A stretch of 64,000 bases of DNA from Duganella zoogloeoides (lineage in GTDB: Bacteria > Pseudomonadota > Gammaproteobacteria > Burkholderiales > Burkholderiaceae_D): assembly GCF_034479515.1 (NCBI RefSeq), contig NZ_CP140152.1, positions 6,138,001 to 6,202,000 of the forward strand. Direction: 5' to 3'. The stretch's first letter is position 1, and each line of letters opens with the position of its first letter. This document shows, one piece after another, positions 26,984 through 50,162 of this stretch. A program made the translations under genes and the position numbers. The notes under the pieces are model-generated. The model searched no databases and was not told the DNA's origin. It saw only the letters and a program-made list of their open reading frames with translations.

Positions 26984-27505
26984 TTATTTTGTCGCTTTCA
27001 CAGCGCGTGAAATCTCGGCATGGAGGTCGCGGATATTCTGCTGGTGTCGGCGTAACTGTTCGCGCGAACGCTGCAGCGGTTCGTGCGCGAGGCCGCGACT
27101 GTGGGCGATGTTTTCCTGCACGGCGGCCAGCTCCGCATCGAGCTCCTGGCGCAGGATGGCCAGCCGGTCGCGATCGCGCGCCCGCTGCTCGTGCGCAGTG
27201 ACGTGCAGGCGTGCCGGTTCAGCTTGCTGCATCCTCTGCAAGCGTAGCGGCGCGGACCGCGTGACAGGCATGACTGGCGGCGCTACCGTCGCTGGTATCG
27301 CACTGGCGCGCCCGCCGATGATCTCGATACCTTGTCCGTCACGGTAGCGCACCGCTTCGGCGCCATGAGCATCGCTTGCCAGCCATGCTGACCATGCCCC
27401 TAACGCCAAGAAAGCCAAGAACGCCAAGAGCGCCAATCGAGCCCATGAAACCCATGCGGCCAAGTCCGGCAGGCCGGCAGCACGGCAGCGTCGACGCGGT
27501 TGCAC
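26984..27505 (-). CDS. Hypothetical protein with N-terminal membrane anchor and coiled coil
   Basis: The 173-aa product is not recognised. It uses a GTG start with a strong GAGGAGG ribosome site. A basic N terminus and a hydrophobic helix (about 18-42) suggest an anchor or uncleaved signal. Residues 100-170 are charged and helical (ARDRDRLAILRQELDAELAA), likely a coiled coil facing the periplasm. It is the last gene of the minus-strand run that contains the Tad locus, 9 nt after the preceding gene. Function unknown. Confidence 0.7.
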   Translation of the reverse strand: MQPRRRCRAAGLPDLAAWVSWARLALLAFLAFLALGAWSAWLASDAHGAEAVRYRDGQGIEIIGGRASAIPATVAPPVMPVTRSAPLRLQRMQQAEPARLHVTAHEQRARDRDRLAILRQELDAELAAVQENIAHSRGLAHEPLQRSREQLRRHQQNIRDLHAEISRAVKATK

Positions 27506-27514
27506 GGTGCCTCC

Positions 27515-28078
27515 TCACAGGTAGCTGATCCTGGTCCAGGCCCGGCGCCGGTGCTCGGTCAGGCTGCCCATCTTGCCGCGCATGGTGTAGATGTTGAGCA
27601 CGACGGGAAACTTGCCCGGCGCCTGGCCCACGAACATCATCACGTCCAGCGCCTGGCCCTGGCCGGTGCCGTCGAATGCCGCTTCGAAGCCGCGCAGCAC
27701 GCCATATTCGGCCCGCACCGGCTGCAAAGCCCGCGCCTGGCCCAGCGTCAGTCCGAAGTTCTGGCTGGCGCCACGGATCGCCGTGGTGGCCATGGTGGAC
27801 AGCGTACTGTCCGGACTGTTGGCGCCAGGCCAGGACATATACGTCATCACCGTGGGCGGATGGTAGGCGTCAGGGCTTTGCGCGACGAAGGTGGGGCGCC
27901 CGGTTTGCGTGGACAGCGTGGTGTTCCACGGTGGCTGGTTCTCCACCCAGATTTCCAGGCCCAGTTCCCTGACCTTGTGGATCTGCATCTGGCGCAGCGC
28001 GCGCTTCGGTTCGGCCAGAACACCGCGCGCGCCCAAGACCAATGCCGCCAAGGCGGCCAGGTGATGGCGGCGGTTCAT
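27515..28078 (-). CDS. Hypothetical exported protein
   Basis: The 187-aa protein has a signal peptide (MNRRHHLAALAALVLGARGVLA) and a beta-rich mature part with no motif I can name; it includes WVENQPPWNTTLSTQTGR and QALDVMMFVGQAPGKFPVVL. Its ATG overlaps the upstream stop by four bases (ATGA, 28075-28078), so it is co-translated with the small membrane protein before it. A longer frame upstream exists but runs antiphase over that gene and is not credible. Periplasmic location is inferred. Confidence 0.72.
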   Translation of the reverse strand: MNRRHHLAALAALVLGARGVLAEPKRALRQMQIHKVRELGLEIWVENQPPWNTTLSTQTGRPTFVAQSPDAYHPPTVMTYMSWPGANSPDSTLSTMATTAIRGASQNFGLTLGQARALQPVRAEYGVLRGFEAAFDGTGQGQALDVMMFVGQAPGKFPVVLNIYTMRGKMGSLTEHRRRAWTRISYL

Positions 28079-28281
28079 CGCACACCTCCTGCGCTCACGA
28101 TCGCCGAGCCCATGCCCAGCAAGGTCAGCACCGCCACCGACAGCAGGCCGTACCAGCGGCGGCTGCTCGCCAGCGCCGTGCGCCAGTCCAGCCGGCTCGC
28201 CAGCCAGCAGGCCACCCACACCAGCGCAAAGCTGAGCAGTGCGCGACCAAACAGATTTCCCAATACGAAGCTGATCGACAT
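28075..28281 (-). CDS. Small two-helix membrane protein
   Basis: A 68-aa protein made of two hydrophobic helices (about 4-28 and 43-63) separated by a short basic loop (SRLDWRTALASSRRWYG). An AGGAGGCTGCC-type ribosome site precedes it, it starts 9 nt after the DUF1444 gene ends, and it overlaps the next gene by ATGA. Coupling on both sides and clean helices support a real gene. Function unknown. Confidence 0.7.
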   Translation of the reverse strand: MSISFVLGNLFGRALLSFALVWVACWLASRLDWRTALASSRRWYGLLSVAVLTLLGMGSAIVSAGGVR

Positions 28282-28290
28282 GGCAGCCTC

Positions 28291-28896
28291 CTAGTGGGCT
28301 TCGAACAGCGACCACGCATCGTCACGCCGCACCATGATCTGGTTGGACAGGCAATGCTGGTCCTGGAATTCGCGCGAAAATTTCAGCGTCTGCGCGCGCA
28401 GCGCATCGACCGCATGGCCATGGGCGCTGTCGCACATCAGCAGGCGGTTGCGGCGCGGCACCGTGACCAGCAACTCGCCGCTGATGTCCGCTTGCACCGC
28501 TTTCCACAACCCGTCAAGTACCAGCAAAGACGCTTCCAGTTCGCCGCCGGTCACGGCCATTTCACAACCCCCATGGGCCTGGAACGATATGCTGGGCAGG
28601 GTGCCGCCCAGGTTCTCGCGCGCCAGGCGTGGCGCATCTTCGCGGGCAATGCCGGCGCTGTGCAGCAGCTTCGACGTGGCCATGATGAACGTGTCGGGCA
28701 GGTCGAACGCATAGGTGACGAGCAAGTCGCCGCACAGTGGCACATGGTCGGGAATCTGGTCCGGCGGCACGCCCGCCTCGCGCAGTGTCCTGATGTAATC
28801 GACATGCTTGATGCGCGGGCGCAGCTGGGCAGCGGTGAGCGGCGGCAGTGCAGGCGGCGTGGGAAAGGACCTGGCTTTTTTCAGAAATCCAAACAT
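28291..28896 (-). CDS. DUF1444 family protein (YtpQ-like)
   Basis: The 201-aa cytoplasmic protein resembles Bacillus YtpQ (DUF1444). The alignment is visible in LLVTYAFDLPDTFIMATSKLL, then APRLARENL, GELLVTVPRRNRLLMCD and the C-terminal LSNQIMVRRDDAWSLFE. No function is established for the family. AGGAG precedes the start, 65 nt after the end of the immunity gene. Its place in the same run may be chance or may make it an accessory of the toxin-antidote pair. Confidence 0.72.
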   Translation of the reverse strand: MFGFLKKARSFPTPPALPPLTAAQLRPRIKHVDYIRTLREAGVPPDQIPDHVPLCGDLLVTYAFDLPDTFIMATSKLLHSAGIAREDAPRLARENLGGTLPSISFQAHGGCEMAVTGGELEASLLVLDGLWKAVQADISGELLVTVPRRNRLLMCDSAHGHAVDALRAQTLKFSREFQDQHCLSNQIMVRRDDAWSLFEAH

Positions 28897-28961: not shown

Positions 28962-30152
28962 TTAGTTGTTGCAGCTCGGGGTGGAACACGGTGTGTAGAC
29001 GATGCGAAGCTGTTCTCTCGGTATACCGGCCCAGTCGTTAATGAGAACTTTCAAGGTGTCCGCATGCCTTGAGATGCCGATGTGCCATTCGATCGGCGTG
29101 TGGGCGCCGACGTAGCGGACGGCAGCGATCTGGTGCCGGGCCAGCACCACGTAGGGCAGCGATTCGAGCCGTTCGACATCGGTGGCATAGATCGGGTGGA
29201 GATCGGGTTCCCAGCCTGGCGGATATTTGAACAGGCGCGCGCTCAGCAGCACCCGGCGCTCGGCGTCGTAACCGTCAAACGCAGCGAAGCCGACGGCGTA
29301 CGCCATGCCTTCCGGCGCGCCCGTGATGTGGCCAGCGTAGTGCGCTTCGTCGGGATCGTAGGGCCAGCCGTAAAAAACAAACGGGTGATTGAAATGGAAT
29401 TCGTCGAACTTTGCCTGGACGGCCAAGGCGAGTTTGACATCGGCGTCGCTGGCAGGATCGGGGCAGTGTTCCGTCAGGGTGAACAGCAGGCCGTCGTCGC
29501 CGATTCGTTCCAGCGTGCAGGGAATATCGGGTTTGATGCAGGCAGCCAGCAACGCGTGCCGGGCATAACACATCCATACCGCACGAAGCTTACCGATCTG
29601 GCGATGATGGTGCGCTTCCAAAGCCGCTACAAAATCAGATGAAAATACTTGCGCAGTACATCCATTCCAATGTTCTAAAGAGGATGACATGAGCATCTTA
29701 AGACTATTTTTACTGACCAAATTGACATCGCGATTTCTTGGCAAAGAGAGAAAAATGTTCACACCAATGCTGCTTGTGTTTACGTGAAGCCTGATCAATT
29801 CAGGCTTGTCGGATTTCTCTTCCTCTGGACCTGGCATCGATGCTGAGAAATTGAGGCTGTAACCGTATAGTGCGATCGAAGTGTCAGTGACATCGAAGTT
29901 GGCGTCGAGCTCAGAATATTCTGAGCGCTCATCCGGTGCCGGTCGGGTCATTTGTCGCAGGCGCGCATCCAGGTCAGGCATGTCCACGTCGATGCGAACA
30001 CGGCCATTAGCAGTGATACCTTCCCAACGTATAAAGTCGGAGTGCATGTCATGGAGCAGTCGTAGGTAGCTCTTTAATTGTTCACATAATGTGCCAAAGG
30101 TGAAATCGCGTGGGGTCCAATTTACCCAGATAATGTGCGTATCATTTTTCAT
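28962..30152 (-). CDS. Probable immunity protein, Imm52-like, cognate to the upstream nuclease toxin
   Basis: The 396-aa protein has no signal peptide. Residues 5-180 (IIWVNWTPRDFTFGTLCEQL onward, with the W-x-G and the NTSSIGVNIFLSLP strand) resemble the Imm52 family, which pairs with Tox-REase-5 toxins. The second half (190-396) is longer than the usual family and I do not recognise it. It starts 10 nt after the toxin stop, and a ribosome site overlaps that stop. A cytoplasmic antidote fits a nuclease target. Its 5' third has lower GC than its neighbours, a sign of transfer as a tip cassette. Neutralisation is inferred from position and family. Confidence 0.68.
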   Translation of the reverse strand: MKNDTHIIWVNWTPRDFTFGTLCEQLKSYLRLLHDMHSDFIRWEGITANGRVRIDVDMPDLDARLRQMTRPAPDERSEYSELDANFDVTDTSIALYGYSLNFSASMPGPEEEKSDKPELIRLHVNTSSIGVNIFLSLPRNRDVNLVSKNSLKMLMSSSLEHWNGCTAQVFSSDFVAALEAHHHRQIGKLRAVWMCYARHALLAACIKPDIPCTLERIGDDGLLFTLTEHCPDPASDADVKLALAVQAKFDEFHFNHPFVFYGWPYDPDEAHYAGHITGAPEGMAYAVGFAAFDGYDAERRVLLSARLFKYPPGWEPDLHPIYATDVERLESLPYVVLARHQIAAVRYVGAHTPIEWHIGISRHADTLKVLINDWAGIPREQLRIVYTPCSTPSCNN

Positions 30153-30162
30153 TACATCATTC

Positions 30163-31710
30163 CTAATTAACGATGTCAGGTGTGAAAATAACTTTGATAT
30201 TAATTTCTTCTTTTTTGAATAGTTCAGTTAAAGCTTCTACCGCTCTTTGATTAGAAACGTGGTACTCGATAGGCGTAGTGCCTGCAGCTTTTAATTGTCT
30301 TCTGGCATCCAAAACAGCGATCTTTTGAAATAACTCCACCCTCTCAGGGTCATTTTCCTTAAGAAGACCATTGAGCTCTGTAAAGTTCTTCGCATCGATC
30401 AAGGTCCCACTCTTGGAGTCAAAACCATCAAAGTTGACTTTGCCGACCCTATATTCAACATTGCGCGGCGCACCTGTCACTTGCTTCTCGTAGTTATAGG
30501 CTGATGGTTTGCTGTTCCCGCGAGGTACTGCAAACCATACGCCCGGTCCCCCATCGCTTGCACCAAGCTTGTAATTGCTCTGACTGGGCGTGGCTCGATA
30601 AGGCTTGGGCAGCGCGCACTTGGCGTTGTGCGCCCACACCCAGTCGGGGCCAACAAAATAACTGGGCGTTCTCGCCACCGAAAAATTGTGGACGCGCAGT
30701 GGCCGATTGACTTTCTTGTTATCGATGACCAGCACGTCACTGCGCTGCCCGGCGATGACGTCATCTTCGACAATCGCATGTGCCTCGGTCCAACCTTTGC
30801 CTTGCACCCACAGCGGATGCTCGTCCGTGACCCTGAGCATGCCCAGGTCCGTGTGCAGCAACCGGTGAGTCGGCGCGATACGGCTGAAGACTTGTTCCAC
30901 TTCGCGGGCTTTTTCCGCAAAGCTGGTTTCGTTGCGAGAATCGACAAGCTGGCCCACCGAGATGCGTTCTATCGGCTCCGGGCCGTTCGGTGTCATCACG
31001 AGTGTGCCCGGCGCGAAGCTGGCGCAACCCAAGTCGGCCTTGATGCTGCGTACCGCATCACTGAGCTTGCCGGCATACTTGGTGAGCCGCGAGGCCAGCT
31101 TGAGCATGACGGCGGGACTGGCGTAGCTACCGACGACCTTGCCCAAATTGTAGGAACCGCATTGCGAGGCCTTGGTGATAGCATCGACAGCTTCCTGGCC
31201 GAGCAGTTCCCCAATTTTTTCGATGGTTCCTTTGGGATCGTTGTAGAAGGCCTTGCCGAGCTCGACCAATCCACTGATGACTTCCTTGGGGTTGCTGATC
31301 AGATCGATCAGATCGCCAATCTGTCCCTTCATACCCTCGAAAAATCCGCGTACAAAGTTGTAGCCATGAACCAAAGTAGATTTGATGCCGTCCCATAACC
31401 CACCCCAAAAGCCCTGGTCGCCGGGTGGAGCACCCTGGTTGTCTACGCCGCCTGCTTCGCAAACATCCTCAAGAAAGCGGCAGTTGTATTGTTTGGCATG
31501 ATCCTCGCGTGCCTTTTTGCTGCCGAAGCAGATGCCATCGACTTTGCAAATTTCCCATTTGATAGCGCTGGGCGCTGGCGAAAGAGGCTGTGTCTGCTGC
31601 GCCGCTAAAGCAGTGTGAACTGGCAGTAAGGCTGTCAGTAACATGACCAAAATCATGCAAATCAGCAGGCAGCGCTGGGCGAAGCCGACGCGAGTTGTGC
31701 TCAGAAACAT
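30163..31710 (-). CDS. Polymorphic toxin: signal peptide, Hint domain and C-terminal Tox-REase-5-like nuclease
   Basis: The 515-aa protein has an N-terminal signal or anchor (about 12-36), a cysteine-containing helical region (50-225), and a Hint autoprotease domain (about 229-362: start CASFAPGTLVMTPNGPEPI, TDEHPLW with the conserved His, end YFVGPDWVWAHN). The C-terminal tip (403-511) has a restriction-endonuclease fold pattern: YEKQVTG with E408, NFDGFD, LIDAK (439-441), Q472, then IKVIFTP, matching Tox-REase-5. Hint domains in polymorphic toxins cut off the tip. Its ATG lies inside the end of the tadE-like gene (10-nt overlap), so its translation is coupled to Tad pilus genes. The last 350 nt are AT-rich compared with the rest. 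Confidence 0.82.
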   Translation of the reverse strand: MFLSTTRVGFAQRCLLICMILVMLLTALLPVHTALAAQQTQPLSPAPSAIKWEICKVDGICFGSKKAREDHAKQYNCRFLEDVCEAGGVDNQGAPPGDQGFWGGLWDGIKSTLVHGYNFVRGFFEGMKGQIGDLIDLISNPKEVISGLVELGKAFYNDPKGTIEKIGELLGQEAVDAITKASQCGSYNLGKVVGSYASPAVMLKLASRLTKYAGKLSDAVRSIKADLGCASFAPGTLVMTPNGPEPIERISVGQLVDSRNETSFAEKAREVEQVFSRIAPTHRLLHTDLGMLRVTDEHPLWVQGKGWTEAHAIVEDDVIAGQRSDVLVIDNKKVNRPLRVHNFSVARTPSYFVGPDWVWAHNAKCALPKPYRATPSQSNYKLGASDGGPGVWFAVPRGNSKPSAYNYEKQVTGAPRNVEYRVGKVNFDGFDSKSGTLIDAKNFTELNGLLKENDPERVELFQKIAVLDARRQLKAAGTTPIEYHVSNQRAVEALTELFKKEEINIKVIFTPDIVN

Positions 31711-32597
31711 GGCGGCGGCTCCCCAGGTGACGGGGCTATCGGCCCACCCGGATCGACCGGCGCTTCCGGATCGTCGGGGTCGTGGGGCGTGGCCGGGTCG
31801 CCTGGTGTGGCCGGTCCCGGTTGGCCGGGCTTCGTGGAACCGGCCAGGTTGGCTTCGAAAAATGGCGATTGCATGCGCAGCAGCGCTTCGCTCTGGATGT
31901 GGATGCGCCTGCCCGGAAACGCCGCGTTGTTACAGTGAGGCGCGGTGGGCTCGGCGCCGATGCCGAACGGGTTGCGCAGGCCGGGCCCTGCGGTCGCTGG
32001 ATCGTTGGCGTTGAAGGCGATGTGCAGCATGCGGTCGATCACCGGCACGAGCAGGCGGAAACAGTAGGTCACGCGCACGTGCAGCAGGTTGGCGTCCTGG
32101 ACCGAGAGGTGGGCGGTGGCGCCGGGGGTGCTGCTGCGGTAGGCCAGGGTGTCGTTGGGCAGCTCCTTGCCGCTGCCGCCATCGAGGCGCGCGCGGCCGA
32201 AGTCGGCAAATGCTGCGCGGGTGGGGTTCAGTATCTCGATGCTGGCCAGTGCCGCTGGGCCGGCGGTTTCGGCCGCCGCCTTGTCCAATGCCCTGGCGTA
32301 GCCGGCGGCGCCCGGCTGGCTGGCAAACAGTGGCGCGAGGCCGCGCGCGAGCGCGTTGCGCATGGCGCCCACGTCGCCGTTGTGCATGGCGCCGGCGCGG
32401 GCGGCCAGCATGGTGGCGTAATTGAGCGTGGCGCGGCCCTGGTACAGCAGCGCCGTTTGCAGGATGCCGAACACCAGCATCACCAGCGCCGGGAAAATGA
32501 CGATGAACTCGGTGGCGGACTGGCCGCGCTGGTGGTACCGGTGGCGCCGGAAGGTTCGGGCGACATGCCCAGGTACGGGCTGGTGAACGATGCTCAT
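31701..32597 (-). CDS. TadE-like pilus assembly protein
   Basis: The 298-aa protein has a class III prepilin-like N terminus: RGQSATEF with a cleavage site after Gly and Glu at +5, followed by a hydrophobic helix (IVIFPALVMLVFGILQTALL). The remainder is a periplasmic domain, with a long Pro/Gly/Asp-rich tail (about 255-298) unusual for TadE. The ATG overlaps the DUF192 stop by ATGA, and its own end overlaps the toxin start by 10 nt. The tail could be a later addition linked to the toxin fusion point (speculation). Confidence 0.85.
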   Translation of the reverse strand: MSIVHQPVPGHVARTFRRHRYHQRGQSATEFIVIFPALVMLVFGILQTALLYQGRATLNYATMLAARAGAMHNGDVGAMRNALARGLAPLFASQPGAAGYARALDKAAAETAGPAALASIEILNPTRAAFADFGRARLDGGSGKELPNDTLAYRSSTPGATAHLSVQDANLLHVRVTYCFRLLVPVIDRMLHIAFNANDPATAGPGLRNPFGIGAEPTAPHCNNAAFPGRRIHIQSEALLRMQSPFFEANLAGSTKPGQPGPATPGDPATPHDPDDPEAPVDPGGPIAPSPGEPPPCF

Positions 32598-32944
32598 CGC
32601 CGCCTCCCTACCGGCAACGCCATGCCCGCCGCGATGCCGCAACGCGCGGCCGTGTCGCTTGCCAGTTCGAGCGTGTACCACGCGCGCCAGCACAGCCGCA
32701 GACGGTTGGGCCGTACGCCGGACACCACCCGCAGCACATGGCCGTCGTGGCGCAGGAACACCAGGTCGAGCGAACAGCGCATGCCTGCCGTGTGCACCAT
32801 ATTGCAGGGAGACAGCAGCAGTCCCTGGTGAGAACCGAGCGGCGCACGTCCCAGCAGCCCGCGCAGCCGCGTGACCACGCTGGCGGCCACTTCGACGTCA
32901 AGCACCTGTTCGCCGGTAGCGGAGTGAAAGCGCAGGGTAGCCAT
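32594..32944 (-). CDS. DUF192 domain protein
   Basis: The 116-aa protein carries the DUF192 signature TRLRGLLGRAPLGSHQGLLL and PCNMVHTAGMRCSLDLVFL. No biochemical role is known for this family; members are often exported, but no signal peptide is evident here. It lies between tadC (8 nt) and a tadE-like gene (4-nt overlap), so it is part of the Tad operon. Its C-terminal third is basic. Confidence 0.85.
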   Translation of the reverse strand: MATLRFHSATGEQVLDVEVAASVVTRLRGLLGRAPLGSHQGLLLSPCNMVHTAGMRCSLDLVFLRHDGHVLRVVSGVRPNRLRLCWRAWYTLELASDTAARCGIAAGMALPVGRRR

Positions 32945-32952
32945 TGCCGCAC

Positions 32953-33840
32953 CTAGAAATCCACGCCCGATTGCAGGAACTTCATCGCAATCGGGAAAAT
33001 CAGCACCAGGAAGGTGACCGGAAAAATAAAGGCCACCAGCGGAAAGATCAGTTTGACCGGTGCTTCCATCGCCAGTTGCTCGGCGCGCTGGAAGCGTTCG
33101 GCGCGGCGCTGCTCGGCCTGCGCGCGGAAGGTGGCGCCCAGGCTCGCACCCATGCGTTCGGCCTGGATCACGGCGCTGACAAAGCTCGAGATTTGCGGCA
33201 GGCGCAGCCGCTCTTCCATGCGTCGCAGCGCTTCGGCGCGCGTAAGGCCGGCGCGCAGGTCGCGCAGCACGAAGGCGAATTCGCTCTTGAGCGGACCAGT
33301 CGGCCCCTTGGCCACCGCCTGGGTAATCGCGCCGGCCATGTTCAGGCCCGCCTCCACCGACATCACCAGGAAATCGAGGTACGTCGGCAGCGCCTTGATG
33401 ATCAGTTTTCGGCGGGTCTTGAGTGCGTCCTTGAGCCACATGCGCGGATACATGAAGCCCACCATGGCCACCAGCAGCACGGCGGTCCAGTTGAACAGGC
33501 CGGCGGCAGCGAGCACGCTGGCGGCCAGCACGCCAAAGCCCAGCATGCTGACCACGCACAGGGCGATGAACTGCGCTGCGCTCATCAGGTACAGCAGGCC
33601 GGACAGGCGCAACTGCTCGCCGGGGCCGGCCAGCAGCGCGCGCGGGAAGCAGTGGCCCAGGTGGTAGTCGAGCAGGCGGATCAGCGGCCACAGCAGGCGT
33701 AGCGGGCGTGGCAGCGGATCGAGCCAGGCGCGGTCCTCAGCGGGCACCTGGCGCTTGAGGCGCACGGCGCTATGGGCCAGCGCCGCCACGCACAGGGCGC
33801 AGGCCAGGCCGATCAGCATTGAAAGAAGGATGAGGGCCAT
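32953..33840 (-). CDS. tadC: Tad pilus inner-membrane platform protein TadC
   Basis: The 295-aa protein is a type II secretion F (GspF/PilC-like) platform subunit with helices near 5-22, 80-130 and 265-290 and the cytoplasmic T2SSF domain (PTYLDFLVMSVEAGLNMAGAI and ERMGASLGATFRAQAEQRR). It pairs with TadB to form the platform that the ATPase turns during pilus assembly. The ATG at 33840 lies 2 nt after the tadB stop. A much longer in-frame extension upstream is antiphase over tadB and is not used. Confidence 0.93.
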   Translation of the reverse strand: MALILLSMLIGLACALCVAALAHSAVRLKRQVPAEDRAWLDPLPRPLRLLWPLIRLLDYHLGHCFPRALLAGPGEQLRLSGLLYLMSAAQFIALCVVSMLGFGVLAASVLAAAGLFNWTAVLLVAMVGFMYPRMWLKDALKTRRKLIIKALPTYLDFLVMSVEAGLNMAGAITQAVAKGPTGPLKSEFAFVLRDLRAGLTRAEALRRMEERLRLPQISSFVSAVIQAERMGASLGATFRAQAEQRRAERFQRAEQLAMEAPVKLIFPLVAFIFPVTFLVLIFPIAMKFLQSGVDF

Positions 33841-33842
33841 GA

Positions 33843-34702
33843 TCACACATCGATCGCGGTGATTTTGCGGATGAAGTGGTAGCCCACGCCCACTGTGCAG
33901 ACGATCACGGCCATGGTGACCCAGCCGTACCAGGCGTGGAACAGCGGCGCCATTGCCTCCGGTTCCATTACGTTGAGGACCGCGATCAGCAGCAGCGGCA
34001 ACGCGCTCATGACCAGCCCCTGCATCTTGCCCTGCGCGGTCAGGCTGCGGATCTTGCCTTCCATTTGCAGCCGGGCGCGCAGGGTCTTGGCCAGCGACTC
34101 CAGCGTTTCGGCCAGGTTGGCGCCCACTTCGCGCGACAGCGCCATGGCGGCGGTGACCAGCGTCAGGTCGGGCAGCGGCACGCGGCGCTCGAGCGCGCCC
34201 AGGGCCACGGCGAAATCGGCGCCCAGGCGCAATTCGCGCTGGAGCAGTTCGAACTCCTGCGATACGGGTGGCGGCGCTTCGGCAGCGACCGCATCGAGCG
34301 CCATGCCCAGGCTGGCGCCGGCGCGTAGCGAGCCGGCCATCATCAGCAGCGCGTCGGGCAGTTGCTGCTCGAAGCGACGCAGCCGACGACGGCCAATGAA
34401 ACGCAGCAGCAGTTGCGGCGCAGCCAGCCCCAGCGCCGCGGCCAGGCCTGCCAGCAGCAGGTTGCCGGTGAGGAGCCAGGCGATGATGGGCGCCACCGCT
34501 GCGAGCGCCAGGTTGAGCACGAAGATGCGCTCGGCATCGGTAAAGATGAACATGCCGGCCAGGTCGTTCTGGGCGGCGCTGGCCAGCCGTTGCTGACGGC
34601 GCGACAACCAGCGCGTGCCGAAGGACAGGAACAGCCACAGCGACAGCAGCACGGTGATGAAGATTGCGCCGACCAGCAGCGGGGTGGGAATCGCGTGGTT
34701 CA

Positions 34703-34703
<1 letters not shown>
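33843..34703 (-). CDS. tadB: Tad pilus inner-membrane platform protein TadB
   Basis: The 286-aa protein has an N-terminal membrane helix (8-30), two further helices near 60-105, the T2SSF domain (LPDALLMMAGSLRAGASLG and LSREVGANLAETLESLA) and two C-terminal helices. It is the first of the two platform proteins. The start codon overlaps the CpaF stop by one base (TGATG), giving strict co-translation with the ATPase. Order tadA-tadB-tadC is canonical. Confidence 0.93.
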
Positions 34704-36358
<1,655 letters not shown>

Positions 36359-36368
36359 GGCGGCTCCT

Positions 36369-37949
36369 TCACGGCTGCGGTGGCAGCGTTGATGGCGGCA
36401 CTGGTGCGGCCGATGCCGGCGGTTTCGAAGGCGCCGACGTTGGTGACGGCACCGCCTGCAGCGACTGCGTTGGAGGAATCGACGGTAGTGTCGGCACCGC
36501 CTGCAGCGACTGCGCCGGAGGAATCGACGGTACCGGCTGCTGTGCAGAAGCCGGCGGCACTGGCTCACCGGATGGTTCGGGCGCCGGGAATGGCGGATGG
36601 CTTTGCCGCAATTGCTCGAGCTTGTCGCCGAATTCGCCGATATGGGCCTCGCCACGCTGGCGTAACTGCTGCGCCAGGCCGTCGCCGGGCGCGATGATTT
36701 CCGGCTCCAGCAGTACCACCAGCTCGGTGCGGTTGGTGCGGAAGTCGTCCGAGCGGAACAGGCGGCCCAGGATTGGAATGCGGCTCAGCGCCGGCACGCG
36801 TTCGATGGCGGTGGACATTTCGCTGTTGACCAGGCCGGACAGGGCAATCATCTCGCCGGCTTTCAGGCTCACCTCGGTGGCGGTGCTGCGCGTGATGAAG
36901 CCGGGAATGCCTGCCACCGACACGGCCGGGTCGATCTGTGACAGTTCGGTGGAAATCTTGGCGGTGATGACGTCGGCCGCATCGATCTGCGGTTCGATGG
37001 CCAGGATGATGCCGTACGGCTTGAACTCGACCGTGGTGGCGCCGAACGCGCCGGCCAGCGGGATCGGCACCTCGCCGCCCACTTGCAGGCGCGCCTTGCC
37101 GCCGCTCTTGGCGGTCAGTTCGGGCGAGGCCAGCAGCCGCACGTCGCCGTTCGAAATGCCCAGGTTCAGGCGCGAGGTAATGGTAGTGGCCAGCCCGAGG
37201 AAGGCGCCGTCGCGCGCGCTGCCGATTTGACGAAACGGCGGTACGGCAGCGAGCAAATCGTCGCCGGCCTCGCGCTGGCGGCCGTCCCGGTACACGCCGG
37301 TGGCGCGCGCCACGCCAGTCAGGCCCAGCACCGGGCCGTTGGCGCTCTTGGCCCAGTTGATGCCGATCTGTTCCAGCAACGAGCGCTTCACTTCCACGAA
37401 ATGCAGGCGGAACAGCACCGAGCGCGTGTGCGACGTGCCCTGGTCTTCGCGCACATTGAAGACGATGTTGGGCGTGCCGGCCAGGCTGGTGGTCAGCCGT
37501 TGCAGCACGTCCTTGTGGGCCACGCCGCCAAGCACCAGTTCCGCGCCCACCTGTTCCACATGGACGCCGGCCACGCCGCGCGTGAGGGCATCGACCTTGG
37601 CGCGCACCTCGAGCAGGTCGCGCGGCACCACCTGCACCCGCCACGCGTGGACGGTGGTGTCGGTCCAGACCAGCAGCGTGGTCGTGCCGACCTGCTCGGC
37701 GATCAGCAGCAGCTTGCCGTCCACGGTGGTGGTGCTGAGCAGGTTGCCGCTGCCCAGCGCCACGCGCACGACCTTGCCGGCGACGGGCAGCAGGCGGATG
37801 TCGCCGGCGGCCAGCGTGAGCGGTTCGGTGGCGCGGTAATCGAGCGCAGGTCGCGGCGGTTTGACGGCGTTGGCGGCAAAGGCCGGTGTCGGCGCCGGGA
37901 TCAGCAGCACGATGCTGGCGACCAGGGACAGGATGCGATGGAGGTTCAT
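36369..37949 (-). CDS. cpaC: Tad outer-membrane secretin CpaC/RcpA
   Basis: The 526-aa protein has a signal peptide (to about A26), a BON/pilus N domain (residues 40-190) and the secretin domain (about 210-440: LGLATTITSRLNLGISNGDVRLLASPELTAKSGG and the family end FRTNRTELVVLLEPEI). It forms the outer-membrane channel for the pilus. The C-terminal 90 residues are Pro-rich and contain a tandem unit PSIPPxQSLQAVP, which is unusual. It lies between cpaB (1 nt) and cpaF (10 nt). No separate rcpB pilotin is seen. Confidence 0.93.
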   Translation of the reverse strand: MNLHRILSLVASIVLLIPAPTPAFAANAVKPPRPALDYRATEPLTLAAGDIRLLPVAGKVVRVALGSGNLLSTTTVDGKLLLIAEQVGTTTLLVWTDTTVHAWRVQVVPRDLLEVRAKVDALTRGVAGVHVEQVGAELVLGGVAHKDVLQRLTTSLAGTPNIVFNVREDQGTSHTRSVLFRLHFVEVKRSLLEQIGINWAKSANGPVLGLTGVARATGVYRDGRQREAGDDLLAAVPPFRQIGSARDGAFLGLATTITSRLNLGISNGDVRLLASPELTAKSGGKARLQVGGEVPIPLAGAFGATTVEFKPYGIILAIEPQIDAADVITAKISTELSQIDPAVSVAGIPGFITRSTATEVSLKAGEMIALSGLVNSEMSTAIERVPALSRIPILGRLFRSDDFRTNRTELVVLLEPEIIAPGDGLAQQLRQRGEAHIGEFGDKLEQLRQSHPPFPAPEPSGEPVPPASAQQPVPSIPPAQSLQAVPTLPSIPPTQSLQAVPSPTSAPSKPPASAAPVPPSTLPPQP

Positions 37950-37950
37950 G

Positions 37951-39135
37951 TTAGGGCCTGCCAGGTTGGGTGTCGCGCAGTGCCGGGATCGGCTGTGGCG
38001 GGGAAGCGGGCGCAGATTGCTGCGGCGCGGGCTGCATTGTCGGAGCAGTAAATGCTGGCTGCGCCTGTGGCAGCGGCGCGGACAACAACGGCGAGGACGG
38101 TAACGACAGCATCTGCGACAGTGAAGGAGAAGCCATCCCGGGCGGCAGCGCTCCGGTCGGCAACGCCGCAGTCGTTAACGACGCCGGCGGCCCCAACGAC
38201 GTTGGCATGGCAACCGGCGCCAGCATGCCGCCGCTGGCTCTGGCGCCGCCGACAATGAATTCGATACTGCTGTCGCGGCCGCGCTCCGCAGGCATCAGGT
38301 GGGCGCCCCGCAGCGGCGCCAGCGCCAGCGCTTCGCGGTCGAGCTTGCCGCGCAGGACCACGCGGAAGCTGCCCAGGCGCTGGCCCACCATCAGCCTGGC
38401 CGCCTGGCGCGGCGATACCAGCAGGGTGATGGAATCGAACTGGCGCTCCTCGGGCGGCGCGCCTTCCACCTCGCCGGGGCGCGCCAACTTGCTGGCCTGC
38501 TGGCCGGGTGTGTTGTCGGGCTCCCGGAATTGGCGGCCGGTAGCCAGCACCACCATGTCCTGCATGAACAGCGTGGCCTGTTCCAGCGATTTTTCGTCCA
38601 CCGGCGCGCGTTCGTGGCGCGGCCTGGCCGCCTTCGAGATCAGGAAGATATCGACCCGGTGTTGCGGCCGCAGCGTGTGGGCGATCGAATTGAGGTTGTC
38701 GATATCGATGGTCATCGCGCGCTGGCCTGCAGGCACCACGGCTGCCACGTCATTGACTTCCGGCTGTTGCAGGTCGCTCAGTTGCACCGGGCGGCCGCGC
38801 AAGACCGGGCGTGCCAGGCGCAACCCTTCCATCGACGGAAAATCATCGGCCAGCAGCGTGTCGGGATAGACCAGGTCGTCCTCGACCGGACGCGCCACGA
38901 AGTGGTTGCTGCTCAACAGCGTGCCGGCCTTGGCATCCTGCTTGGGCACCACCACGCGCACCGTCACCGGCGCCTTTTGCTGCGAGCGCTCGGCCAGCTC
39001 GTTCTTGATGGCCGTCTCGCGCTGCTGCAAGTACAAATAGGCCAGCAGCGCCACGCCGGCGGCCAGCGCCACTGCCAGGCCCAGCAGCAGCGCCGGATGC
39101 GTCAGGCGCGCGATGATCTTGGTGGGAGGGGCCAT
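37951..39135 (-). CDS. cpaB: Flp pilus assembly protein CpaB/RcpC
   Basis: The 394-aa protein has an N-terminal membrane helix (15-36), an SAF domain (about 55-125: VTVRVVVPKQDAKAGTLLSS) and the CpaB periplasmic domain (VPAGQRAMTIDIDNLNSIAHTLRPQHRVDIFL). CpaB helps position the secretin. The last 110 residues are a Pro/Ala/Ser/Gln-rich tail not found in typical members. Start is 3 nt after the small pilin-like gene. Confidence 0.92.
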   Translation of the reverse strand: MAPPTKIIARLTHPALLLGLAVALAAGVALLAYLYLQQRETAIKNELAERSQQKAPVTVRVVVPKQDAKAGTLLSSNHFVARPVEDDLVYPDTLLADDFPSMEGLRLARPVLRGRPVQLSDLQQPEVNDVAAVVPAGQRAMTIDIDNLNSIAHTLRPQHRVDIFLISKAARPRHERAPVDEKSLEQATLFMQDMVVLATGRQFREPDNTPGQQASKLARPGEVEGAPPEERQFDSITLLVSPRQAARLMVGQRLGSFRVVLRGKLDREALALAPLRGAHLMPAERGRDSSIEFIVGGARASGGMLAPVAMPTSLGPPASLTTAALPTGALPPGMASPSLSQMLSLPSSPLLSAPLPQAQPAFTAPTMQPAPQQSAPASPPQPIPALRDTQPGRP

Positions 39136-39138
39136 GGC

Positions 39139-39324
39139 TCATACGCTCAGCGAAATCGCATAGGAATAGGCCGCGTACGCATCCTTCAACGCGGCCACCA
39201 GCGCGTGCACCGGCGACGACGGGTGTGTGGCCGCCACCAGCGCCACCACCACGAACAGCAGCACCACCACGTATTCGGTCATCGCCTGACCGCAATGAGG
39301 ATCGTGACGAACAAGCGATTTCAT
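39139..39324 (-). CDS. Second Flp-type pilin-like protein
   Basis: The 61-aa protein has the Flp processing pattern: HCGQAMTEYVVVLLFVVVAL, with cleavage expected after Gly, Glu at +5 and Tyr at +6, then a hydrophobic stretch. It lacks the conserved Flp tail and differs from the main pilin at 43275-43547, so it may be a minor pilin or tip subunit. It overlaps the preceding gene by ATGA and lies 3 nt before cpaB. Confidence 0.78.
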   Translation of the reverse strand: MKSLVRHDPHCGQAMTEYVVVLLFVVVALVAATHPSSPVHALVAALKDAYAAYSYAISLSV

Positions 39325-40016
39325 AGCGCCTCCACGGCGGTAAGGATGATCTGGCTCGGACCGTCGGGCCAGATGACGATGCTGATCTGGCGCCGGTCGC
39401 GCTGGGCGGTGATGAAGGTCATGCCGGCGCCGCGCTGCCGGTCGTCGATGTCGTGCGCGCGCGTGGCGCGCCAGCCGCCGGCGGCCAGCTGCTGCATGTA
39501 AAACTGGCGCAGCTGCGGCACCGGCATGCGCGAATGCAGCGCCATCGTCACGCCGCGCCGGCCATCGTCGTTGCTGGCCACCGATGACGCCAGCGCCGCC
39601 CCCGGCGGCAGCGGCACGCCCAGCGCGGCCGGGGTCACCGCGCGCAAGGAGGCCGTCGCCTTGCGGCCGCGCGACAGGTAGCCAAAGCTCCCCTTGCTAC
39701 CTTGCGGCACCAGTTGCAAGGTCACCAGGCAGTCACCGCCCAGGGCGGAGAGCACTTGCCAGCCGGCGGTGGCGTCGCGCCGAACGGCGTGGCCGGCCGC
39801 ACGCCATTGCTGTTCGGTACGATCCAGGATGGTGGCGAGATCTTCCTTGCCTTGCACCTGGCGGATGTCGAGCCCCAGGCCGGCGCTGGCGACGTTGCTG
39901 GCAACCGGCACCGCGCTCAGGCCGGGCGGGATGCCGGCCGGGCACGGTTGCGCGCTGCCTGGTGCGGCCAGGCAGCATCCGAGGGCGAGAAGAAGTAATG
40001 AGGAAGGGGATGGCAT
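39321..40016 (-). CDS. Hypothetical exported protein of the Tad operon
   Basis: The 231-aa protein has a signal sequence (MPSPSSLLLLALGCCLAAPGSA; the Cys pair may allow lipidation, although the site is not a classic lipobox). The mature part has two mixed alpha/beta repeats (LDIRQVQGKEDLATILDRTE and MPVPQLRQFYMQQLAAGGWRA), but I cannot name a family. GGAAG precedes the start. It is embedded between two exported proteins and a pilin, so a role in pilus assembly or secretion is plausible but unproven. Confidence 0.72.
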   Translation of the reverse strand: MPSPSSLLLLALGCCLAAPGSAQPCPAGIPPGLSAVPVASNVASAGLGLDIRQVQGKEDLATILDRTEQQWRAAGHAVRRDATAGWQVLSALGGDCLVTLQLVPQGSKGSFGYLSRGRKATASLRAVTPAALGVPLPPGAALASSVASNDDGRRGVTMALHSRMPVPQLRQFYMQQLAAGGWRATRAHDIDDRQRGAGMTFITAQRDRRQISIVIWPDGPSQIILTAVEAL

Positions 40017-40029
40017 GGCAATCTTCCGG

Positions 40030-40839
40030 TCACTGTTGCAAGGCCGGCGCGACGGGGCCGGGTTTGACCGCGCCGCATGCGCGGCTGATAAGGGTCCAGC
40101 GTTCGGTGTGGGTGTGACGAATGGCTGGCTGGCGGGTGTCGATGCCTGCCATGACCTCGATCGCCTTGCGCGCGCTGGCGCGCTCCTTGGCGGTACGGGC
40201 AGTTTGCAAGTCGCGGTTCAATGCTGCGCGTACCCGCGCAATGTCCGCTGCCGCCTGCGCATCGCGTTCGGTTTTGATGCGGCGCACTTGCCTGGCCTGT
40301 TCACGCTGCTCGGGCGTACCGGTAGCTTCCAGCAATTCCGGCACGCCCCACGCGTCGCCCGGCAGGGACACCGGCTGGGCGACGTCAAAGGCGTTTTCCC
40401 AGGTCGTGTCGCTGAGCTTGCGCACGATGCTGGTCATGCGGCCAATGGAACATTGGTCCACCATGGTCAGAGTGTTGCCGTCGAGCGTCAAGGACAGGTT
40501 TTTACAGGCGTGTGGCGCGGCAAAGGTGGCTGATTCGGGCACGACCTGCTGGCCCATCCGTCGGCAGGTCGTGCTGCGCCCGCCAGTGGTGGTGGTGACC
40601 CTGTGGTTCTCGCCGGTGTCGGTGGTCGTCGTGACCGTGCCGGTAGCACCATTCTTGTGATCGGTGATTGTCACGGGTGTATCCAGGTGCCGGGTGATGC
40701 CCTGGCCGGCTTCGAGGCGGTAGAGCCCTGGCGGTGGCAGCATGTTCAGCATCTCGGGCGTGAAGGCCGGCGGCGCAGCGCCGGCGGCACTGCCGGTCAG
40801 CGCAACTGCGGCCGCGAACAAGGGAACGATGGTGAGCAC
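40030..40839 (-). CDS. Hypothetical exported protein of the Tad operon
   Basis: The 269-aa protein starts with GTG (GAGAGG upstream) and has a signal peptide ending near ALTGSAAGA. The middle has a DUF3617-like feel (EMLNMLPPPGLYRLEAGQ, cysteines in TTCRRMG, HACKNL and DQCSIG), which is only a weak resemblance. The C-terminal part has a charged helix (EQREQARQVRRIKTERDAQA). It lies 21 nt after a TadE-like gene and 13 nt before the next exported protein. Confidence 0.7.
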   Translation of the reverse strand: MLTIVPLFAAAVALTGSAAGAAPPAFTPEMLNMLPPPGLYRLEAGQGITRHLDTPVTITDHKNGATGTVTTTTDTGENHRVTTTTGGRSTTCRRMGQQVVPESATFAAPHACKNLSLTLDGNTLTMVDQCSIGRMTSIVRKLSDTTWENAFDVAQPVSLPGDAWGVPELLEATGTPEQREQARQVRRIKTERDAQAAADIARVRAALNRDLQTARTAKERASARKAIEVMAGIDTRQPAIRHTHTERWTLISRACGAVKPGPVAPALQQ

Positions 40840-40860
40840 GATCAGCCTCTCTAGTAGCGG

Positions 40861-41706
40861 TTACTTGAGCCGGTCGTCCGGCACCTGGTCGACACTGACC
40901 TTGCCGACCTCGATGGTGGCGGTGGCGCCGTCCCAGGGCAGCATCGCCAGCCTGGCGGCCGTGATCGGCGCGCCCAGCCCCTGGGCGGTGGGCACCATCT
41001 TTTCCACCATGGCGCGCGTGCCGCTGCGGGCGTTGGCGGCCCAGGTGTTGGACAGGATGGTGCCACTGGCGGTGAAGGCGATGCCTTGCCACGGTGTACC
41101 GGACCACAGCCGCTGGTACGCTGCGCTGTTCTTGGCTACCCGGTCGATCGATACCTCGGCCACAACCAACGATTCGACCGGCAACGGCGGCACGAAATTG
41201 ACCAGTCCCTTGACGCTGACGTTGTGCAGGGTGTCGATGACGGCGCCGGCGATATCGGTGTCCGGCTTGACGGCAGCAATGTCGCCTTCGATCTGCGAGC
41301 GGTTGTCGAGGTAGCGCGTGCCCGCATGGTCTTGCCACAACGGGTCGCTACCGTTATCGAACGCGGTAGCGTTGCGATCGGTGGCGCGGATCACGGCGCC
41401 GGCCTGGCGGTCATGGATCAGCCGCAGCGCGATTTCGTTGTTGATTTCCTCGGACGATTTCTGGTTGGGGTCGTGCAGGGTATTGAAGCCGGTGGCCGAT
41501 GGTTCATACCAGACCGTGCGCTCCCAGGCGGCGTAGCGCGCTGCCATGGTGGTGGTGTGCTGCACATCGGCTAGCTTGGCCAGCGCGGTCACCGCGATGA
41601 ACAGCGGTATCAGCACGAACATGGCCGCCACCAGGAATTCCACCATGGCCTGGCCATGCTGGCGGACAAACCTGCGGCGGGCCGGGCCGATCACTGGGCA
41701 GCCCAT
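40861..41706 (-). CDS. TadE-like pseudopilin
   Basis: The 281-aa protein has the prepilin signature HGQAMVEFLVAAMFVLIPLF (cleavage after Gly, Glu at +5), then a large periplasmic domain with no recognised catalytic motif. TadE-like pseudopilins are needed for Flp pilus formation. It overlaps the TadG-like gene start region by 16 nt and precedes two hypothetical exported proteins. Three proteins in this operon carry the same G-Q-x-x-x-E type N terminus besides the main pilin. Confidence 0.85.
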   Translation of the reverse strand: MGCPVIGPARRRFVRQHGQAMVEFLVAAMFVLIPLFIAVTALAKLADVQHTTTMAARYAAWERTVWYEPSATGFNTLHDPNQKSSEEINNEIALRLIHDRQAGAVIRATDRNATAFDNGSDPLWQDHAGTRYLDNRSQIEGDIAAVKPDTDIAGAVIDTLHNVSVKGLVNFVPPLPVESLVVAEVSIDRVAKNSAAYQRLWSGTPWQGIAFTASGTILSNTWAANARSGTRAMVEKMVPTAQGLGAPITAARLAMLPWDGATATIEVGKVSVDQVPDDRLK

Positions 41707-43226
41707 GATGCGCTCCGGTCTGCCACGCTGCGATCACTCAGGCGCGCCTGCCAGTACGGGCTGAACAGGTTGGCGACTTCGGTCTTGCCGTCGCTGCGGC
41801 CCCAGCCGGCGCGCGTCAAACCGGCGCCATCGGCTTTGCTGCGATAAAAATACGATTGCGCCGCTGCCAGCGTGCGCAGCGTGTCGCCGCGCATGCCGTC
41901 CTGCAGCCGCAAGGCGTCGCTGCCGGGCAGCAGTTTGCCGCTGGTGTGGATGGTGCTGCCCGTGCGCTCGGCTTCGATGGTGACGGCATAGGCGCCGCCG
42001 TTGCGCTCCGGTGTCTGGTCGGCGGGCGTGATGGTGGGATTGCGCGCGTCGCGGTAGTAGTTTTGCAGGCCGCCTGCGGTGTCGAGCGAAGTGCCCGGCC
42101 CCTGCTCATAGCGCATTTTTGCCGGCACAAACGTGAGCGGCGAAATCAGCGCGGCGCCGTAATGGTCGCTGGCAGCAGGGTTGTTGCGGTAACCGGTGTC
42201 ATCGCTGTAGCCGCCGCTCCTGCCGGCCACCGCACCGCCGGAGCCGCCGACGATGTCGTCGTCGATCAGAGGCCAGGACGTGGTGGTGTAGCAGATGCCG
42301 GTCCAGCACGGATACCAGAATGTGCATGTGGCAAAGCCACCGCCCAGCGTGGCGTCCAGCGACAGCCAGCGTTTTTTGTCGCTGCCGAGGAAGCTGCCGC
42401 CCGCGTGGGCAAACGCAAAAAAAGTACTCGAGTAGGCGTGGTTGGGCAGCAGCTTGCATGGTTTGACTTCCGTGAAACGCCAGCGCGCCGTTGGCGTGGA
42501 GGGTCTGTTGCGGGTAAAACCATCGGTCGAATTGCTGCTGACCGTAACGTCGGCAAAGCGGTCGGCAACTGCCGAGGGATCGTTGGCGCGATGCTGGCGG
42601 GTAGCGTTACCCCAGGCTTGCACTTGCAAGGCGGTACGGCCGACCAGGAATGCCCCCGAGGTCAACTGCGCTTGCGGGTCGTTGCGCTTGATGGCCTCGT
42701 CCGCCACCTGCGCCATGTTGATTGCCGTGGCCACGTGGTGCGCTTGCTGCGCCACCTCGAACGCCTTGATCAGCGCGTCGAGACCGGTGACTGCCGGTCC
42801 CGCAAAGGCAGAAAAGGCGGAATGGGTTGTGGCGATCGGCAGGTTCTCGGCAAACTCCCATTCAGGCTTGTTATCCGGAAGCAGGGCCTCGAGACTCAAC
42901 ACCGCCCCATCCATCCGCTTGCGCGTGGCCGCCGCATCTTCCAGATACGATTTAAGGCTGGCAATTTGCACCACGGCCACCTGGTTGGCGACCATGGCGC
43001 GGTTCAGATAGGCGGAAAAATTGTGATCGCGCGCCTGCAGGACGCCGGCGCTGTAAGCGCCGGCGTCGGCGGCGTTTTGCAAACGGGTTTTGGTATTGGC
43101 CAATATGCCGCTATTAAATAAAACCAGGGTCATCAGCGCGGTGGCGATGCCGAGTAACAAGGTAAGTACCATGGCCTGGCCGCGCTGGCGCCATGATGAA
43201 TACGCTTTGGGCCGCTGGCCGCACAT
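41691..43226 (-). CDS. TadG-like pilus assembly protein
   Basis: The 511-aa protein has a short basic leader QRGQAMVLTLLLGIATALMTLVLFN typical of TadG-like proteins, whose Glu at +5 is replaced (Leu here), and a long extracytoplasmic domain beginning NAADAGAYSAGVLQARDHNF, the usual start of the TadE/G-like family. It lies 48 nt after the Flp pilin gene and overlaps the next TadE-like gene. Confidence 0.85.
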   Translation of the reverse strand: MCGQRPKAYSSWRQRGQAMVLTLLLGIATALMTLVLFNSGILANTKTRLQNAADAGAYSAGVLQARDHNFSAYLNRAMVANQVAVVQIASLKSYLEDAAATRKRMDGAVLSLEALLPDNKPEWEFAENLPIATTHSAFSAFAGPAVTGLDALIKAFEVAQQAHHVATAINMAQVADEAIKRNDPQAQLTSGAFLVGRTALQVQAWGNATRQHRANDPSAVADRFADVTVSSNSTDGFTRNRPSTPTARWRFTEVKPCKLLPNHAYSSTFFAFAHAGGSFLGSDKKRWLSLDATLGGGFATCTFWYPCWTGICYTTTSWPLIDDDIVGGSGGAVAGRSGGYSDDTGYRNNPAASDHYGAALISPLTFVPAKMRYEQGPGTSLDTAGGLQNYYRDARNPTITPADQTPERNGGAYAVTIEAERTGSTIHTSGKLLPGSDALRLQDGMRGDTLRTLAAAQSYFYRSKADGAGLTRAGWGRSDGKTEVANLFSPYWQARLSDRSVADRSASWAAQ

Positions 43227-43274
43227 GATGGGCTCGTATTTATACGTAAATATTTAATGTCGGTATTTTCTGAA

Positions 43275-43547
43275 TTAATTTCCGGCATCGTTATCCTTGT
43301 TATATTCGGACATGCCTTTTTTGGTATTGGCGCGGGTGGCGGCGGTTTGCGCCGTGGTGCCGGCGGCCTGGATCTGCGCCTGGGCCGGTTTGCCTGCCAC
43401 TTCGTTGGCCAGGCCCGACGTCTGGTTGCGGATGGTTTGGCCGAAGACCGAGTACACGCCGATGGCGGCCACGGCAATCATGGCGACGATGATCACGTAT
43501 TCCATCATCCCCTGGCCGCGTTGGTGCTGTGAAAATAAATTGTTCAT
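43275..43547 (-). CDS. flp: Flp/Fap major pilin
   Basis: The 90-aa prepilin has a short leader ending QHQRG, cleavage expected before QGMMEYV, Glu at +5 and a hydrophobic helix IIVAMIAVAAIGVYSVFG, the hallmark of Flp pilins that build Tad fibres. Its C-terminal tail is longer and more Ala/Thr-rich than the usual 50-60-aa class. A strong TTAAGGAG ribosome site lies 9 nt upstream. It is the first gene of the 19-gene minus-strand run. A prepilin peptidase (tadV/cpaA) is not in the window. Confidence 0.93.
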   Translation of the reverse strand: MNNLFSQHQRGQGMMEYVIIVAMIAVAAIGVYSVFGQTIRNQTSGLANEVAGKPAQAQIQAAGTTAQTAATRANTKKGMSEYNKDNDAGN

Positions 43548-44100
43548 GATAATGACTCCTTAAATCAAAATGAGCGAAATGCCGATTCATGGTGATTTTT
43601 AAAGCCGGAGCAGTCAATATCAGGCGAATGAGGTGGCTCAACCGTGGCGCAGCACGTATTTCCGCCCTTTTGTGATATGGGCGGATTGCTGGAATTAATT
43701 AGTTGCTGGAATCGAAGCGAATATTATTTATCGCTATTTCTACGCAGCCATCGAGCGCCGTGGCGCACATAACTGCAATGGAAACCAGCAAAATTAAATT
43801 CGATTCTGGAGCCGGCCGGCAAGTTGCCGCAGCGACAGCAGACGCACTGCATGGGAGCGCTACCCGAGCCGACTTTTTCACGTCCGTGTTGCGTTCCCAC
43901 GTCAGCTTTGTTCGTAAAAACTTTTCATGAGCAAATCTTTATTCGGGAATCAGGTTCGCGTTCCGATCAACTGCACTGCAGCAATTTTTGCTGATGACGT
44001 TCACCTTGCCGCCCTGCTATGATCGAACGCTTGTGCGCTGCGCAATGGGAGCTCTCCCGCTGCGGCAGCATTCCCTTGGCGTTTAATGAAAGAGATCGAC
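43548..44100. promoter_or_regulatory. Divergent intergenic region between flp and the first M3 peptidase gene
   Basis: This 553-nt gap has no supported gene. It must hold the leftward promoter for the Tad operon and the rightward promoter for the peptidase. A hairpin with 6-bp arms CCGCCC/GGGCGG (43662-43667 and 43679-43684) lies 115-137 nt upstream of flp and could be an operator or attenuator. TTGACT occurs upstream of flp but no well-spaced -10 is evident, and no sigma-54 type -24/-12 site was found. GC is lower than in the coding flanks. Confidence 0.45.
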
Positions 44101-46331: not shown

Positions 46332-46355
46332 ATTTTTTTGTATCGAAGGGACACC

Positions 46356-48491: not shown

Positions 48492-48514
48492 ATGAGGCCA
48501 CCTCAACGGGTTCG

Positions 48515-50090: not shown

Positions 50091-50162
50091 ACTGTGGCTT
50101 TCTCCAGACTGTTGGCGTTTAGTATGGACAGATTGTTGGGTATCAATGGACTCTTCATTGGC

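Follow-up and report, generated by a model that had tools for sequence, protein, structure and literature searches.

Polymorphic toxins share a common modular order of export signal, variable middle, Hint domain, exchangeable C-terminal toxin and adjacent immunity gene, and the pairing of the Tox-REase-5 family with Imm52 is among those listed by Zhang et al. 2012 (PMC3482391); pilus, TadE and Flp were absent from the part of that text examined (the first 300,000 of 357,715 characters), and the other works cited here are likewise represented by portions of their text. The Tad-like Kil machine of Myxococcus xanthus is needed for contact killing and is proposed to have exchangeable TadE/F/G-like minor-pilin tips with separate tip gene clusters (PMC8460266, PMC12075869). 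In 2021 its toxin was said to be one that "remains to be discovered" (PMC8460266), the effectors are given as unknown in PMC10433427, and in 2025 Kil tip 4 was described as associating with a toxin or being itself toxic (PMC12075869). Tad genes also adjoin Gram-positive type VII secretion loci, where LXG and Rhs toxins are assigned to the type VII system and the authors leave the link with Tad open (PMC11217815), and Tad and Rhs are mentioned separately in PMC3250509 and PMC6963963. This text concerns a locus in a 64,000-nucleotide stretch of the Duganella zoogloeoides genome (the window), in which genes for a polymorphic toxin and its probable antidote directly follow the gene for a tadE-like minor pilin at the far end of a set of Tad pilus genes.

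The window toxin follows the modular order of the known polymorphic toxins, its export signal being judged by inspection, with a tadE-like pilin as its proposed trafficking partner. With Kil it can be likened by description; no toxin is named in the accounts of Kil, whereas the genes here link both toxin and antidote to the pilin. The Tad genes beside type VII loci likewise lie next to a toxin-exporting system, but no coupling of a toxin to tadE is described in the portion seen. An earlier note on this DNA had known of no described case of such translational coupling of a toxin, and no description of a polymorphic toxin in a Tad operon was found among the literature matches listed, most subscription journals and bioRxiv preprints lying outside their coverage; the Tad-type VII neighbourhood was already on record. 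The arrangement is confirmed and belongs to an architecture that recurs, in which the position behind the DUF192-linked tadE serves as a toxin slot, filled by different toxins from strain to strain. The best-supported single reading, to which we give a probability of about 0.5, is that of a Tad-linked polymorphic toxin locus in which the tadE-like minor pilin would act as the carrier that loads polymorphic toxins on the Tad pilus.

The toxin gene (30163..31710, minus strand) encodes 515 residues, with a signal peptide at ~1-37 judged by inspection alone, a four-Cys segment at 55-84, an N-domain reaching to ~228, a PT-HINT domain at 237-363 and a Tox-REase-5 tip at 405-487. The combination of Hint and Tox-REase-5 proposed in the earlier note was borne out by Pfam (PF07591, E 4.2e-10; PF15648, E 1.7e-7) and by a match of the Hint domain to PDB 2lwy (E 3.5e-14). 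The Hint keeps its first Cys (C229) and the terminal H361-N362, which we take to be its working residues, and the FDG and DAK motifs are present in the tip. The protein is classed as a polymorphic toxin on the Hint before the tip, the C-terminal toxin domain with its catalytic motif and the exchange of tips on a constant N-terminus, the last resting on one intact relative, that of Noviherbaspirillum aridicola. The N-domain was modelled as mainly helical with moderate confidence, the whole toxin model being of low confidence (mean pLDDT 48.9). The toxin ATG (31710) lies 10 nucleotides (nt) inside the end of the gene for the TadE-like minor pilin (31701..32597, minus strand; Pfam TadE E 4.1e-9), the proposed toxin carrier, which has a proline-rich tail ending PPPCF, and the toxin stop is followed after 10 nt by the antidote start. 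Both distances are as the earlier note had given them, and so is the single minus-strand run, confirmed by gene order and Pfam, that leads from flp (43547) through the Tad genes to the toxin and the probable immunity gene. Co-transcription and translational coupling, which the note had also proposed, are plausible from this gene order and gain from the same 10-nt overlap in N. aridicola, the only other intact toxin found with the N-domain.

In N. aridicola NCCP-691 (G081; Oxalobacteraceae) a fused DUF192-TadE gene ending PPPCM overlaps a toxin of 498 residues, which is 49% identical to the window toxin through the end of the Hint and then carries an RNAse_A_bac tip (E 2.9e-28). Behind it stand CdiI_2, Imm45, CdiI_2, CdiI_2 and Imm45, then homologues of two small genes that also lie behind the window's antidote. 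This toxin shares the RNase A domain of CdiA-CT and the CdiI_2 immunity of the CdiA-CT/CdiI systems, but differs in its length, its Hint and the lack of a CdiA scaffold by Pfam. G064 retains what is left of a decayed tadE-toxin pair, with homologues of these two small genes behind it. Whether the toxin stands beside unrelated genes in close relatives, a case the earlier note had counted against its proposal, was checked in part. A search with the toxin gave matches at 20 places beyond the window. The two whose matches span most or a good part of the N-domain, not merely the Hint or the tip, both adjoin a TadE gene or its remnant (G081, toxin residues 19-368; G064, 109-194). TadE was found in none of the other 18 within the stretch read; the control is weak for nine of them, which have frames of at least 1240 residues, longer than the 1.5-kb flanks, so that their upstream neighbours were unseen. 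No Tad match was found in the 18-19 kb searched at each of five places in G001, nor TadE in 3.7 kb at G101, which matches toxin residues 141-363. The N-domain was present in 1 of 399 genomes of the order, the window's own, and in no plasmid record, and a wider contig scan with two exact short patterns, which misses distant relatives, returned N. aridicola only.

A survey of the family covered 245 genomes, of which 46 contained TadE-like places (63 rows); 60 of the 63 were read downstream, three second fragments being left out. Directly after the TadE-like gene stood an Rhs gene in 20 of the 60 and a Hint toxin in two, together 22, while in one more an Rhs gene came second. Three places were empty, with a relative of the window's 173-residue gene right after tadE, although two of these tadE copies are broken. 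Both states occur in G018, as tadE-rhs-173aa (L059) and tadE-173aa (L060), and at a second Tad locus of the window genome a 1725-residue Rhs protein begins 4 nt after tadE. Fourteen of the 20 adjacent Rhs genes are long intact frames of 1477-1864 residues, with gaps of -25 to +37 nt to start codons assigned mechanically. DUF6531 and RHS repeats are present in the three Rhs proteins that were scanned over their full length, the tip being DUF6883 in L085 and unassigned in the other two; ten further tips (L086 left out) comprised three Tle1-like lipases, three DUF6765, one TreTu_C and three with no assignment. Of 32 DUF6531 genes, 15 lie beside or one gene from a TadE match, a figure biased upward because the genomes were chosen for carrying such loci; G033 has a fourth DUF6531 gene that does not lie beside TadE, and N. 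aridicola has three. Further DUF6531/Rhs genes near the same Tad loci (G000:C1:2206935 and G223:C41:209315-230474) look as if Rhs arrays accumulate there.

The strongest hint of a carrier role comes from one genome, G033, to which the check for orphan pairs was confined. It has one core Tad locus (L183), with no Rhs gene beside its tadE, and three tadE(OmpA)-rhs pairs (L177, L179 and L181 with L084, L085 and L099) that lie apart from Tad machinery. By tblastn no such machinery was found within ~12-14 kb either side of the pairs, bar a 52-residue TadA-like match (E 8e-5, L178). In this genome, then, the pilin stays with the toxin and not with the machine. Pairs of carrier and effector away from the main machine are familiar from the vgrG-effector islands of type VI secretion; the three G033 pairs are alike in this, except that the carrier would be a pilin.

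Outside the family, 44 of 399 genomes in a sample of the order had a match. The slot was read at 40 places there, the 48 rows being reduced by five from genomes covered before and by three that were weak or fragments. At three of the 40, which belong to two genomes of a single small family (4 of its 10 genomes have a match), the next gene encodes an exported protein with a similar four-Cys N-terminus and a differing end, namely Pesticin (E 3e-31), Glyco_hydro_19 below cut-off and none recognised. One place has a broken Rhs gene (L134) and one is empty with a relative of the 173-residue gene (L133). Behind the slot toxins of L129 and L131 inspection showed a lipoprotein-like gene and a gene for an exported CPAC-motif protein (L129:4516-5133, L131:3093-3728), one of the latter having a sub-threshold thioredoxin match. 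Across the phylum, a match was present in 10 of the 398 genomes sampled.

Cysteines recur on both sides of the slot. The five non-Rhs toxins share the pattern C-x(3-5)-C-[FL]-x(14)-C-x-[FL]-x(2-5)-C near the N-terminus, the spacing of 14 being constant in all five, and in each of the 20 slot proteins examined 2 to 6 Cys lie between residue 26 and the first conserved domain or Rhs motif, or within 85 residues if it is missing. There are 3 to 7 Cys in 19 TadE tails, and the window TadE has Cys 222 and 297 in its tail. A disulphide-based contact between TadE tail and toxin may be proposed. Two Rhs-linked TadE proteins that were scanned have a C-terminal OmpA domain (E 7.5e-18 and 1.1e-13), and by motif it is present in 11 of 20 slot TadE proteins; such OmpA-bearing minor pilins beside Rhs genes are seen at L079:8612-9790 and L085:1988-3199.

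If the pilin is the carrier, coupled translation would produce it immediately ahead of its toxin. The toxin would reach the periplasm by its Sec signal peptide and there meet the pilin through the Cys-bearing segments on both. The pilin would carry the toxin at the pilus tip, and the toxin would leave with the pilus through the secretin. The Hint domain would then cut off the nuclease tip in or at the target cell, where DNA is the putative target, as the earlier note had proposed, with the Imm52-like domain of the antidote keeping the producer alive. A tentative extension, held with less assurance than the reading of the window itself, is that Burkholderiales Tad pili form a general toxin-delivery class, each such tadE-like pilin serving as the dedicated tip for a Cys-tagged toxin, either in the operon or as an orphan cassette that uses a Tad machine encoded elsewhere, and docking through Cys segments on both partners.

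A number of observations weigh against the carrier reading. What sequence shows is the gene order, the domains, the exchange of tips, the recurrence of the arrangement and the tadE-rhs pairs lying apart from machinery; carriage and export by these Tad systems, the target, the cleavage and the immunity are inferred from it. At 34 of the 60 family places the stretch read contained no recognised toxin, and the empty form was absent as well; these comprised seven DUF805-like genes (Pfam E 9e-16 for one scanned), five DUF192, nine with the ordinary Tad order, 11 others and two contig ends. Among the 20 adjacent Rhs genes, six are either broken or truncated at a contig end, and nine of the 20 places showed no TadB/TadC match in the short upstream stretch, which outside G033 may reflect orphan pairs or missing sequence. 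Outside the family a toxin-like gene stood in only 4 of the 40 places of the order, and next to tadE there was no recognised toxin in any of five class-level loci beyond it, where the next genes were judged by inspection and two by Pfam (a TIG domain; OmpA below cut-off). The pattern had already been noticed when the four-Cys segments were excised by hand, and their shuffle z ran from 2.3 to 6.5 across two families and was 1.0 for L129 with L130, from one genome. No prepilin peptidase was found in the window or the locus, the genome having three Peptidase_A24 genes elsewhere. A type VI secretion marker, one T6SS_VasE gene, is carried by the window genome, so another exporter is possible. The main rival is that a toxin cassette exported by Sec and type II secretion was inserted in the Tad operon and borrows its promoter, Tad having no physical role. 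It accords with the apparent signal peptide on the toxin, with the many related Tad loci that lack a toxin and with the low GC of the toxin tip and antidote residues 1-180 (GC 0.41-0.50, GC at third codon positions, GC3, down to 0.27), which suggests recent exchange. We nevertheless regard it as rather unlikely, as unrelated scaffolds (Hint, Rhs and pesticin-type) fill the same slot in two families and the pilin gene accompanies the toxin away from the Tad machinery in G033.

A different role for the slot proteins would be that of PilY1-like tip adhesins or surface proteins, their tips being processed but for adhesion or passage of the cell wall and not for killing. Rhs shells can be cell-surface proteins, which counts in favour of this. 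Variable domains have moreover been proposed on Tad tips (PMC12075869). The intact nuclease motif of the window toxin, the known toxin families at several tips and the immunity families directly behind the N. aridicola toxin nonetheless make this account improbable. It seems more improbable still that the toxin is carried by the type VI system of the window genome (G000) and is merely co-located with Tad. The marker T6SS_VasE, presumably TssK, was found in only two of eight slot-toxin genomes (G000 and G018) and was absent from the other six; the toxin has an apparent signal peptide, and no PAAR, VgrG or Hcp domain was found in its Pfam scan. What speaks for type VI carriage, apart from that one gene in G000, is that Tox-REase-5 is listed with type II, V and VI secretion (PMC3482391).

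The antidote, 396 residues long, is itself a fusion. The label Imm52 given to it in the earlier note holds for residues 1-254 (29391..30152, minus strand) by profile comparison: against a profile of five Imm52-like G001 proteins that lie beside Tox-REase-5 genes (four were scanned, all passing PF15579) hhalign gave a probability of 93.8% and an E of 1.7e-7. The label does not extend to the whole protein, and Pfam returned no Imm52 (PF15579) match on the 396 residues (E up to 1) or on residues 1-254 (E up to 5). Residues 255-396 (28962..29390, minus strand) form a second Tox-REase-5-like domain fused in frame, of which 257-388 align to the toxin tip with 28% identity (E 5e-12; z 22.5, 2000 shuffles); Pfam places Tox-REase-5 here below cut-off (E 0.054), and the antidote was also matched when its own genome was searched with the toxin. 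FDG and PIEWH are intact in this domain but the catalytic DAK is not conserved, which makes nuclease activity improbable. It may have some other role, for example as a decoy. The possibility that it is a separate gene was considered and rejected; the frame is open, and residues 240-299 offer only TTG 243 and ATG 283 as starts. GC3 is low in residues 1 to ~180 and host-like from ~210. The likely history is that a cassette of tip and immunity gene came in by recombination with a resident immunity gene, one that by then had a disused toxin domain attached to its end. The five G001 Imm52 paralogues hardly differ over their last ~50 residues, in keeping with recombination there. Among 240 family genomes the fusion was found in that of the window and no other, and in no plasmid record, so it is not established as a family; no such fusion appeared in the titles and abstract starts among the literature matches listed on fused immunity proteins (best 8 of 135). 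The structure model is of low confidence (mean pLDDT 56.1), and a fold search with it gave no match at E 0.001 or better. As side observations, the G001 loci L025 and L026 carry repeated Tox-REase-5 toxin genes, the one that was scanned having DUF6861 as well, and the ends of the G001 Imm52 genes look homogenised by recombination between paralogues.

The Tad genes themselves lie on the minus strand, in order from flp, and make up a core system in which the Tad (type IVc) pilus components Flp, TadA, TadB, TadC, secretin, RcpC and TadE are all found by Pfam, Flp being below cut-off. The major pilin gene flp (43275..43547; Flp_Fap E 8.8e-6, 25.9 bits against a curated cut-off of 32.2) is followed by genes for a TadG-like minor pilin (41691..43226; Tad E 3.7e-5) and a pilin-like protein with GQAMVEF near its N-terminus and no Pfam match (40861..41706; gap -16 nt). 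Two unclassified genes of 269 and 231 residues and a 61-residue pilin-like gene (GQAMTEY) occupy 39139..40839, with gaps of 21, 13 and -4 nt. Then come CpaB/RcpC (37951..39135; RcpC E 2.3e-19), the secretin RcpA/CpaC (36369..37949; Secretin E 5.6e-38), the TadA ATPase (34703..36358; T2SSE E 2.7e-63), TadB and TadC (32953..34706; T2SSF E 1.1e-18 and 1.3e-17) and a DUF192 gene (32594..32944; E 3.5e-14), which often adjoins tadE in related loci. If each gene is given the start codon closest to the stop before it, neighbouring genes between flp and the antidote are -16 to +21 nt apart, except for 48 nt between flp and TadG, in agreement with the claim that almost all were under 25 nt or overlaps. 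Scans for promoters and terminators showed no minus-strand promoter-like site from tadE to the antidote, and are uninformative because their counts were close to those of shuffled sequence.

The earlier note had ended the run at 28962, which was wrong, as four further minus-strand genes carry it past the antidote to 26984 with no gap above 65 nt (65, 9, -4 and 9 nt). The nearest is DUF1444-like (28291..28896; Pfam E 0.002, below cut-off; NCBIfam PRK13668 E 3.1e-5, far below cut-off). Next are the two small genes that recur in relatives, one for a 68-residue membrane protein (28075..28281; 63% and 61% identity to N. aridicola and G064), found there behind the immunity genes and behind the remnant, and one for a 187-residue protein, exported by inspection (27515..28078; 52% identity to N. 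aridicola, 50-54% in pieces to G064), with the same distribution. The last, of 173 residues (26984..27505), is likely the right edge of the toxin slot, since its relative adjoins tadE in the empty slot of L060 and the Rhs gene in the filled slot of L059. On the other side two adjoining Peptidase_M3 genes (44086-46236 and 46260-48491) lie on the plus strand, divergent from flp. Beyond them are a stretch of low GC (0.50-0.55) at 48000-52000 and, in 48515-52921, four minus-strand open reading frames of 198-411 residues without a Pfam match at E 0.01.

Loci of this kind, where the genes for toxin, antidote and tip pilin are closely packed in a single run, offer direct candidates for the means by which Kil and other Tad-like machines kill on contact, and the question becomes testable in ordinary, non-predatory bacteria. 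If the carrier reading is true, the Tad pilus would join the export routes of polymorphic toxins, and an exporter would be suggested for the signal-peptide Rhs proteins of genomes without type VI secretion.

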